A stretch of DNA of 64,000 nucleotides, taken from contig NZ_LR131273.1 in assembly GCF_900631615.1 (NCBI RefSeq), forward strand, positions 3,876,850-3,940,849. The letters run 5' to 3'. Below, piece after piece: positions 16,388 to 19,448 of this stretch. Positions within the stretch are counted from its first letter, which is position 1; the number at the start of each line of letters is the position of its first letter. The stretch is from Tsukamurella paurometabola (GTDB lineage Bacteria > Actinomycetota > Actinomycetes > Mycobacteriales > Mycobacteriaceae). The position numbers were made by a program, and so were the translations under genes. The notes beneath the pieces are model-generated. The model saw nothing but the letters and a program-made list of their open reading frames with translations, had not been told where the DNA came from and ran no database searches.

Positions 16388-16410
16388 GCTCCCCGCGACT
16401 AGCGGGGAGC
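16388..16410 (+). promoter_or_regulatory. Perfect inverted repeat upstream of the Cys-tail operon
   Basis: 9-base arms GCTCCCCGC (16388-16396) and GCGGGGAGC (16402-16410) flank a 5-base loop, 61 bases before the first ATG of the operon. No T-run follows, so it does not look like a terminator. It may be a regulator operator or a hairpin in the 5' leader; the sequence does not decide between these. Confidence 0.5.
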
Positions 16411-16471
16411 GCGATCCGCCGCCATGCTTTACCCAACCTTGAACGACCGGTCGCCCCAGGAGGTGAATCGC

Positions 16472-17392
16472 ATGTCCCGCAATACATTCGAGAACGCTCT
16501 CGATGGCCTGTTCCCCGCCGAGTCCCGATGGTTCCTCTACTGCCTGCTCGCCACGATCGCGTTCGGCGTGACCTGGCGTTTTCTCACCGCCGTCCGCCGG
16601 CCGGTGATCGAGCAGCCACCGCTCACCGTGCCCGAGATCGCCTGCCTGCGGTCGTGGCAGGCGCCGCTCCTCGCGGCGATGGGCCTGCTCAGGGCGGGTG
16701 AGCACCTCGACGCCGAGGGGCGTGCCGATCCCGCCCGCCCGCTGCCCTCGACCACCGACGATTTCACCCGCCGCATGCTGCATCGTCTCGACGGCTCGCA
16801 GTTCTCCGTCGACCTGCTCCTGCACGACCAGCTGCGCCCCCTGCGCGAGCTGGAGAAGGGCCTCGAGCAGCGCGGCTACCTGCGCACCAGCGCCGAGCGC
16901 TGGCGGAGCCGGTTCAGCGCCGCCCCGGTGGCCGCCGTCGCCGTCGCGGGGATCGTGGGCACGCCCGTGTTCATCGTCGCGCGGCATGCACCGGCCGATG
17001 CGGTTCTCCCCTGCGTGCTCGTGCCGTCGCTGGTCACCGCGGTGTTCGTCCTTCCGGTGCTGCTCACGGTCCCCCGCACCACGCCTGCCGGTCGACGCCT
17101 CCTGGCCGCAGAGCGCGCCCGAGCGAATTACCTGCGGCCGGTCCTCCGGCCCGCTTTCGCCACCTACGGCGCCGCGGCCGTGGGCCTGTCCGTCGCCCTG
17201 TTCGGCACCGCCGCCCTCTGGCAGATCGACCCCCGCTACGCCGCGGCGATGGCCGTGGCGGGCGGAACCGGCAGCGGCGGCTCCGGTTCGTCCTGCGGCA
17301 GCGCGTTCACGTGCGGTGGATCCTCCTGCGGCGGCGGATCGTCGTGTGGCGGAGGTAGCGGCTGCGGTGGGGGCGGCGGCTGCGGCGGCTGA
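16472..17392 (+). CDS. TIGR04222-type membrane protein with Gly/Cys tail (copy A)
   Basis: 306 residues. TM1 is at about 20-38, a soluble middle region carries VPEIACLR and RGYLRT, a second hydrophobic pair covers about 150-205, and LFGTAALWQIDP lies near 250-261. The last 40 residues are almost only Gly, Ser and Cys, with six Cys in the tail (CGSAFTCGG, SSCGGG, SGCGG types). This architecture matches what I recall of TIGR04222 membrane proteins. The ATG is chosen because AGGAGGTGA lies 4 bases upstream; the longer frame would skip it. It is the first of a four-gene operon with a DUF692 oxidase, so the Cys tail is a candidate substrate for modification (inference). Confidence 0.85.
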   Translation: MSRNTFENALDGLFPAESRWFLYCLLATIAFGVTWRFLTAVRRPVIEQPPLTVPEIACLRSWQAPLLAAMGLLRAGEHLDAEGRADPARPLPSTTDDFTRRMLHRLDGSQFSVDLLLHDQLRPLRELEKGLEQRGYLRTSAERWRSRFSAAPVAAVAVAGIVGTPVFIVARHAPADAVLPCVLVPSLVTAVFVLPVLLTVPRTTPAGRRLLAAERARANYLRPVLRPAFATYGAAAVGLSVALFGTAALWQIDPRYAAAMAVAGGTGSGGSGSSCGSAFTCGGSSCGGGSSCGGGSGCGGGGGCGG

Positions 17393-17491
17393 GCCGCCGG
17401 CCGCCTCCGACGTCACGAACCCGCTTCACCGGGCCTTCAGCAGCGAGGGTGCCGGGATCCCGTCGAACCCATTCACCAGGAGGTGAACGTC

Positions 17492-18406
17492 ATGTCCCGC
17501 ACCACCCTCGAGACGGTCCTCGAAGCGCTGCTCCCCACCACGACCCGGTGGTACCTCTTCCTGCTGCTCGGTGGCATCGCGCTCGCCCTGGTCTGGCGGC
17601 TCGCGGCGGCGCCGTGGCGGCGCACCGTCGTCGATCCGCCGCTCAGCGCGGTCGAGCTGGCGTGCGTCCGGAACCGTCGGGCGCCGGTCGTCGTCGCGCT
17701 CGCCGAGCTGCGCGCCGATGGGTGCGTGCCCGCGGCCGGGAACACGACGCGGCCGCCGTTGCCGGCCGGTGCCGATCCGTTCGTCCGGGCCGTCCATGCG
17801 TACTGCGACGGCCGCTCGGCGTACACGGTGAACGAGATCGGCGTCGCGCTCGCGGACGAGCTCGACGCATTGGAGGAGCGCGTCGCCGCCCGGGGCTACC
17901 TGCGTTCGGCGACGGACCGGTGGAGGATGCGACTGGGTGCGGCCCCGGTGACGGCGGCCGCCGTCGGAGGTGCCGCCACCGCGTTCATCCGGATGGTGCT
18001 CGCCGACTCGGCGGCCGACATCCGCATCCTTCCCGGCGTCCTCGTCCCGTCCGTGATCGTCCTGGTCGTCGTCTGTCCGCAGCTGTGGTCGGTCGAACGT
18101 GCGACGCGCGCCGGGCGGCGACTCCTCGCAGCCGAGAAGGATCGCCTCGCGTACCTCGCTCCCTCCCGCAAGCCCGCCTGGGCGACGTACGGTCCTGCGG
18201 CCGTGGGGCTGTCGGTGGCCGTCTTCGGGACGGCCGCGCTCTGGCAGTTCGACGAGGCCTTCGCGGGCGGCGTCGAACTCGCCGGGAGTGCCGAGGCGTC
18301 GGGCGACGGTGGCGGTTCCTGCGGCGGAGCGTCGAGCGGCGGGGACGGCGGTGGAGGGTGCGGCGGCTGCGGGGGTTGTGGTGGCTGCGGCGGGTGCGGA
18401 GGATGA
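17492..18406 (+). CDS. TIGR04222-type membrane protein with (CGG)n tail (copy B)
   Basis: 304-residue paralog of copy A, with the same order of TM1 (about 21-40), VELACVR, RGYLRSATDRW, a hydrophobic pair and LFGTAALWQ-like VFGTAALWQFDE. The tail again has six Cys, but the last five are spaced exactly every third residue as Cys-Gly-Gly repeats ending at the stop. The same AGGAGGTGA ribosome-binding site lies 4 bases before the ATG; a GTG inside it is rejected as start. Its stop overlaps the next start (ATGA), so translation of the DUF692 enzyme is tied to translation through the Cys tail. Confidence 0.85.
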   Translation: MSRTTLETVLEALLPTTTRWYLFLLLGGIALALVWRLAAAPWRRTVVDPPLSAVELACVRNRRAPVVVALAELRADGCVPAAGNTTRPPLPAGADPFVRAVHAYCDGRSAYTVNEIGVALADELDALEERVAARGYLRSATDRWRMRLGAAPVTAAAVGGAATAFIRMVLADSAADIRILPGVLVPSVIVLVVVCPQLWSVERATRAGRRLLAAEKDRLAYLAPSRKPAWATYGPAAVGLSVAVFGTAALWQFDEAFAGGVELAGSAEASGDGGGSCGGASSGGDGGGGCGGCGGCGGCGGCGG

Positions 18407-19269
18407 GCACCGTGACCCGCACCGTTCTCGCCCTCGGACCGCTCGGGCTCGGCTGGCGGCGCGAGATCGCGGGCGTCATCGCCGATCTCCGGCCGGGCTT
18501 CTGCGAGGTGATCGCCGAATCCGTCCGTCTGCGCCGAGGCCGCGCCGAGCCCGACCCGCTGCTCGTCGACCTGCGTGATCGCGGCGTGCCGCTGGTGCCG
18601 CACGGCGTCGCCCTCTCGCTCGGCGGTGCCGACGACGTGGAGCCGGAACGCGTCCGCCGCCTGGCGGCGTGCGCCGAGGCGTTTCGCGCGCCACTCGTCA
18701 GCGAGCACATCGCCTTCGTGCGCGCGGGCGGGATCGAGGCCGGTCATCTGCTTCCCGTGCCCCGCACCCGGGAAGCGCTCGACGTACTGGTCCGCAACAT
18801 CACCAGGGCGCAGGACGGGCTGCCTGTGCCGCTGGCGGTGGAGAACATCGCGGCGTTCCTGCGCTGGCCGGAGGACGAGTACTCGGAGGCGCAGTTCCTG
18901 ACCGAGTTGCTGGATCGCACGGGCGCCCTGCTCGTGCTCGACGTGGCGAACGTGTACGCGAACGCCCGCAATCGCGGCCTCGACCCGCAGGAGGAGCTGG
19001 CCCGGCTGCCCGTCGACCGGATCGCCTACAGTCACGTCGCGGGCGGTTCCGAGGCCGGCGGCCACTACCACGACACGCACACCGACCCGGTGAACGACGA
19101 CGTACTCGAGCTGGTCACGGCGCTCCGGGAGCGCGTCGACGTGCCGCTCATGCTCGAGCGCGACGGCCGCTATCCGCCGGCTCGCGAGCTCTTCGACGAG
19201 CTCGACGCCATCGCCGCGGCGGGCGGGTGTGCACCGATCACCGACCGCGCGCGACAGGAGTGGTCATGA
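18403..19269 (+). CDS. DUF692 / MNIO-type multinuclear iron oxidase
   Basis: 288 residues with a TIM-barrel pattern and the residues expected of the DUF692 (MbnB/TglH/bufferin) family: His67 in LVPHGVALSLGG, His102 in SEHIAF, Glu147 in VENIAAF, Asp180 in VLDVANVYANARNRG, His211 in SHVAGG, the HYHDTHTDPV cluster at 221-230, and Glu252 in LERDG. Characterised members bind two or three iron ions and oxidatively remodel Cys residues of peptide precursors. Here the only Cys-rich candidates are the tails of the two upstream membrane proteins. Start overlaps copy B by 4 bases and its stop overlaps the next gene by 4 bases. The open frame upstream is a shadow. Confidence 0.9.
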   Translation: MSTVTRTVLALGPLGLGWRREIAGVIADLRPGFCEVIAESVRLRRGRAEPDPLLVDLRDRGVPLVPHGVALSLGGADDVEPERVRRLAACAEAFRAPLVSEHIAFVRAGGIEAGHLLPVPRTREALDVLVRNITRAQDGLPVPLAVENIAAFLRWPEDEYSEAQFLTELLDRTGALLVLDVANVYANARNRGLDPQEELARLPVDRIAYSHVAGGSEAGGHYHDTHTDPVNDDVLELVTALRERVDVPLMLERDGRYPPARELFDELDAIAAAGGCAPITDRARQEWS

Positions 19270-19448
19270 GCCTGCGAGAACGCCAGGAGGCCCTGGTCCG
19301 GGCGCTCGTCGCCGACGGCCCGGTGCCCGAGGGTTTCGACCCGCACGAGGTCGCCGCCGCGGGCGCGGTGTGCCGGCACAAGCGGGACGCGCACGCGGGG
19401 CACGCCGAGGACGCCCGCCGCCGGCGATGGTGGCGACGGCGCGGGTGA
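19266..19448 (+). CDS. 60-residue partner of the DUF692 enzyme (SCO6045-like)
   Basis: Begins [18 protein letters not shown], then PVPEGFDPHEVAAAGAV, then a basic tail ending RRRRWWRRRG. The pattern of a helix followed by GPVPEGFDP is what I recall of the SCO6045-like C-terminal domain found next to DUF692 genes, and it resembles the N-terminus of DUF2063-type partner proteins that deliver substrates to MNIO enzymes. The ATGA overlap with the DUF692 gene supports a real, coupled gene. The family assignment is from memory and moderate; the basic end could bind membrane or nucleic acid. The operon ends here, facing the SCO1664 gene 22 bases away. Confidence 0.65.
   Translation: MSLRERQEALVRALVADGPVPEGFDPHEVAAAGAVCRHKRDAHAGHAEDARRRRWWRRRG

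Follow-up and report, generated by a model that had tools for sequence, protein, structure and literature searches.

Four genes of Tsukamurella paurometabola probably form a maturation cassette of the MNIO kind, in which, judging from sequence, a DUF692 oxidase would oxidise Cys-Gly sites in the tail of a membrane protein to yield a metal-binding tail displayed on the membrane. They lie in a stretch of 64,000 nucleotides (the window, to which all positions refer) of a 4.7 Mb genome, and are arranged as follows.

16472-17392, + strand: TIGR04222 membrane protein A (gene 1), 306 aa, with a Gly/Ser/Cys tail and the end CGG
17492-18406, + strand: TIGR04222 membrane protein B (gene 2), 304 aa, with the tail ...GCGGCGGCGGCGGCGG
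18403-19269, + strand: MNIO (DUF692) oxidase (gene 3), 288 aa, PF05114
19266-19448, + strand: mini-partner (gene 4), 60 aa, related to the MNIO partner domain over that domain's N-terminal half, with an Arg/Trp-rich end

A first-pass annotation had described two paralogous Cys-tailed membrane proteins, an MNIO enzyme and a coupled small partner, with the last three genes joined by ATGA overlaps, and each of these elements is present at these coordinates on the plus strand. The gene 2/3 junction reads GGATGA and the gene 3/4 junction TCATGA, and AGGAGGTGA ribosome sites stand ahead of genes 1 and 2. Proteins A and B score 83.2 and 96.5 bits against TIGR04222 (cut-off 43), are 47% identical, and both end in a low-complexity tail that is seen directly. 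The gene 3 product reaches 263 bits against PF05114 (cut-off 25) and thus matches the MNIO superfamily profile, while gene 4 overlaps the MNIO gene and its product aligns to the partner domain over its N-terminal half. The families named for checking were TIGR04222 and DUF692, both of which were matched, and an SCO6045-like model, whereas no model of that last kind was matched by the 60-aa protein. The substrate candidates are multi-span membrane proteins of 304-306 aa and not the small precursor peptides of a RiPP system.

The pairing itself had also been proposed as new, but it was already predicted by Antoine et al. 2025 (PMC12452194). That paper collects more than 3,500 TIGR04222 proteins, notes that their C-terminal segments are rich in Cys and that an MNIO is often encoded next to them in Actinomycetota, and proposes a subset of the proteins as putative MNIO substrates; MNIO action on true membrane proteins is therefore a prediction in print, and we found no experimental study of the TIGR04222-MNIO system in the open-access literature. 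The loci described here resemble theirs in that a membrane protein with a Cys-rich C-terminal tail stands beside an MNIO in Actinomycetota, some of theirs with PME-type 2 partners. In their paper such partners accompany at least 10% of the TIGR04222 loci, many loci being described as lacking a partner gene, whereas a dedicated profile detects a partner at nearly all of the named loci surveyed below; their adjamnio-V small proteins may include the 60-aa protein. Bufferins, oxazolin and fontiphorin (captophorins) likewise combine an MNIO and a partner with an extracytoplasmic product, which in our case is predicted, and Cys-Gly sites are common to oxazolin, fontiphorin and the TIGR04222 tails. 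Captophorin precursors, however, carry Sec signal peptides and are paired with full DUF2063-RRE partners (PMC12452194, PMC13419390), whereas here the candidate substrate is a multi-span membrane protein and the partner is half-size. New here are the inheritance of the genes as a block, the half-domain partner, its two or more truncations, the constraint on the tail and its CGG end, and the topology derived from charge.

The cassette's MNIO type was found in 11 of the 16 genus genomes, its own included, at 82-100% identity, the nearest named match seen being that of T. tyrosinosolvens (87%). Among the 15 genomes covered by both family surveys, TIGR04222 is present in 10/10 that carry this MNIO type and in 0/5 that do not. 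In T. tyrosinosolvens the cassette genes sit between the mshC and SCO1664/DUF3090 genes; in four of the five cassette-free genomes the intervals between the mshC and SCO1664 matches are 22, 68, 81 and 129 bases, as against ~3.2 kb with the cassette in the window, while the assembly of the fifth is too fragmented to judge. By this pattern the cassette genes are gained or lost as one block, and in several species of the genus one TIGR04222 gene suffices. A wider survey of co-occurrence, proposed in the first-pass annotation, bore out the association: among the best 80 of 575 named relatives of the MNIO, the partner gene follows the MNIO gene in 79/80, and a gene with a Gly/Ser/Cys tail lies directly upstream in 71 of the 76 loci with enough upstream DNA (four more lie too near a contig end; L283, L294, L300, L301 and L344 are tail-less upstream). 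Within this same set, the 4-base-overlap start codon is kept in 76/79 cases into the partner gene, including 11/11 short forms, and in 41/71 into the MNIO gene, while 63/71 upstream tails have the exact CGG end. No metal-related gene was seen among the conserved neighbours of the loci. The partner was detected in 88 genomes, all within the 94 of 394 that hold an MNIO; all counts refer to sampled genomes. A perfect 9-base palindrome, GCTCCCCGC-N5-GCGGGGAGC, lies at 16389-16411, to within a few bases, in the interval from mshC to gene 1, and occurs only in the window's genome among the 11 compared.

To examine the oxidase, we aligned it to 3bww, which we take to be the HvfB homologue of PMC13419390, as well as to 8hci (identical in sequence to 8hi7) and MbnB 7tcr. 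Residues N183, D224 and H226 are invariant in the 16 aligned rows, and by our reading of the alignment to 3bww they correspond to N175, D242 and H244 of HvfB, which are essential in that enzyme (PMC13419390). The best NCBIfam model is BufB (NF050167), at 189.4 bits against an equivalog cut-off of 310, and HvfB (NF003818) scores 159 against 360; the enzyme lies below every equivalog cut-off among the models matched. The related FonBC requires Cys; Ala is accepted in the preceding position, whereas Phe and Glu are not, and the following residue must in most cases be small and cannot be Pro, although one Cys-Tyr site was still modified; Gly directly before Cys is absent from the variants described in the available part of that paper (PMC12668002). 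The preference for a small next residue is matched here: each Cys of the protein B tail is preceded by Gly or Ser and followed by Gly. The tail of protein A contains 6 Cys. Taken together, the BufB and HvfB scores, the preferences of FonBC and the context of the tail cysteines make 5-thiooxazole the likeliest product, at about an even chance; the most likely function would be to bind metal outside the membrane. Modification of the tail by other chemistry, either a methanobactin-like oxazolone-thioamide or the carbon excision near the C-terminus that TglH performs, is unlikely. The sub-cut-off scores of the MNIO, the resemblance of the partner model to MbnC and the common CGG end, which hints at C-terminal recognition, would fit it, as does the chemical diversity of MNIOs (PMC12452194); against it, the top-scoring models are BufB and HvfB, and the Cys-Gly context suits enzymes that form 5-thiooxazoles.

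The tails are conserved as protein sequence. Across 8 B-type genus genes the tail has a pN of 0.091 versus a pS of 0.559 and is, by this measure, under purifying selection, and codon choice varies at every one of its 21 conserved Gly columns, which argues that the Gly/Cys repeats are maintained as protein and not through DNA slippage. The AlphaFold model of protein B has a mean pLDDT of 85.6, with the tail disordered. Scoring a Cys tail as at least two [GS]C[GS] motifs in the last 50 residues, we found one in 72/82 MNIO-linked TIGR04222 copies, in 13/29 hand-picked unlinked copies of MNIO genomes (some Cys-tailed copies lie far from any MNIO gene), and in 1/31 copies of genomes with no detected MNIO, a set comprising at least one gene from each of the 28 MNIO-less class-sample genomes passing the cut-off and one family genome. 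The single copy in the last group (L189) lies ~140 bases from a contig end, so an adjacent MNIO could have been missed. When Gly/Ser-rich tails are considered alone, the contrast is 71/71 linked versus 1/9. The association is not significant once relatedness is counted, as only 2-5 independent pairs fall on supported branches, and the contrast is thus mainly one between subfamilies. Nor is the pairing of tail and MNIO universal: 10/82 linked copies have no Cys tail, seven of them in the genus g52 (probably Streptomyces), where fusion of the MNIO to the partner domain is frequent, and the seven wider regions searched around these copies yielded no Cys-Gly tail frame.

The Cys-tailed copies away from MNIO genes would fit an alternative in which the Gly/Cys tail needs no modification to serve as a thiol metal binder or disulfide switch, and the MNIO acts on something else. 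TIGR04222 proteins with Cys-less Gly tails also occur where no MNIO was found, which implies a role of the tail that does not require the enzyme. This alternative nevertheless has little probability, since the reading frames overlap, the genes are jointly present or absent, and at most of the named loci (71/76) the tail gene lies immediately upstream. We regard the tail cysteines as the likely substrate of the MNIO. The single TIGR04222 gene of L092 has a tail that begins A-like and finishes B-like, and is likely a recombinant of the tandem pair; copy A of L091 is interrupted ahead of its tail; and at the copy A position of T. tyrosinosolvens (L263:3073-5004) one 643-aa TIGR04222 protein is annotated, a length that is also the upper value given by Antoine et al. 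(PMC12452194).

If the MNIO modifies the tail, the orientation of the membrane protein constrains when it could do so. Of 61 TIGR04222 relatives examined with a simple hydropathy scan, 42 have four predicted membrane segments, 12 have three (P0002 included) and 7 have five. In the 42 four-segment relatives, the mean Lys+Arg/Asp+Glu counts are 0.5/1.8 at the N end, 16.5/12.7 in the 115-aa domain, 0.9/0.6 and then 7.1/2.6 in two further stretches, and 0.7/3.7 in the tail; applied to these counts, the positive-inside rule places the N end and tail outside and the soluble 115-aa domain inside. The predicted position of the tail agrees with the topology of Antoine et al. (PMC12452194), whereas their large domains are outside. 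With the tail outside and the oxidase cytoplasmic, modification would need to precede passage of the tail across the membrane. In the proposed mechanism, the mini-partner would activate the MNIO, which would bind the newly made tail on the cytoplasmic side and oxidise its Cys-Gly sites; the result would most likely be 5-thiooxazole, which HvfB and FonB also form, and the last membrane helix would then carry the modified tail outside. Recruitment of the enzyme, elsewhere the task of a leader peptide and RRE, may fall to the cytoplasmic TIGR04222 domain. The mature tail would be displayed on the outer face of the cytoplasmic membrane and would bind copper or another soft metal, a role that we consider plausible at somewhat less than even chances.

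The 60-aa protein has no NCBIfam or Pfam match at E 0.1 and no PADLOC match at 0.01; its T. tyrosinosolvens counterpart is annotated as a hypothetical protein. Residues 1 to ~47 align to positions 1-47 of the 89-position partner profile (E 5e-15), and by this alignment the protein represents the leading half of a partner domain that is helical. For the domain family we found neither a Pfam nor an NCBIfam model, nor any sequence-level match among PDB chains (best E 0.82), and an AlphaFold model of a full-length partner matches MbnC, which like NGO1945 and TglI has the DUF2063-like fold of PME-type 2 partners, at modest Z. The family is confined to MNIO genomes in this sample (88/88 of 394) and would fill an annotation gap. 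In contrast to partners of the MbnC and TglI type, the window's form retains the first half only. This short form (60-67 aa) is found in 11/11 genus members with the cassette and in 9/9 named Mycolicibacterium/Mycobacterium loci (among the best 80 of 575 named relatives), all of which fall into one supported clade of 23 rows on a 107-row MNIO tree. The Rhodococcus-like row L125 is a separate short-form event on the same tree, so at least two truncations of the partner are forced.

With half of the domain missing, the 60-aa protein might be read as a functionless remnant in decay, and its basic C-terminal end does drift (pN 0.297, pS 0.550 in 11 genus rows). The core (aligned columns 1-46), however, has a pN of 0.048 and a pS of 0.405 in the same rows and is, on these values, under strong purifying selection, the end much less so. 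Its retention in all of the cassette-bearing genus genomes and named loci just listed, the second, independent truncation, and the 4-base overlap at 11/11 short named loci (in T. tyrosinosolvens, by contrast, 2 bases separate the genes) also oppose decay, which we judge very improbable. As to what the functional half would do, PMC13419390 shows that the active Fe(II)/Fe(III) state of the enzyme depends on HvfC and infers that HvfC binds the substrate. A half-size partner has no room for an RRE and could hardly bind substrate, which leaves the active iron state as its inferred role. We tentatively propose that a helical hairpin of ~45 residues without an RRE is a minimal activator of the iron centre of an MNIO that matures a membrane-protein tail, recognition having moved into the cytoplasmic domain of the substrate. 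If true, this reading would separate substrate binding from iron-state activation, which are fused in known partners, and a natural half-size partner that evolved at least twice allows the iron-activating part to be tested directly.

Other arrangements of MNIO and partner were also observed. The window's own genome has a second MNIO locus (C1:308214-311948; L002, L099), also seen at L264, where the MNIO is followed by a 90-aa protein with one membrane span and a His/Cys/Gly/Ser tail, and then by a full-length partner; in T. tyrosinosolvens it adjoins ferredoxin and dapC genes. By charge, the tail of this 90-aa protein would face the cytoplasm, unlike that of TIGR04222. Loci of this type were seen repeatedly, both within the genus and outside it, and some contain two tail genes (L100, L102, L134, L141). 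At L124, L317 and L321 the partner reading frame extends for more than 500 residues; the MNIOs of L321 and L124 are identical, and the L124 extension contains a molybdopterin oxidoreductase domain (80 bits, cut-off 24), with cytochrome b561 below its cut-off. Finally, a single open frame encodes both MNIO and partner domain at 28/102 loci (repeats of a genome included), many of them in g52. These include L243-L251, and L243 has two long proteins, presumably DUF4142-like, and no Cys tail.
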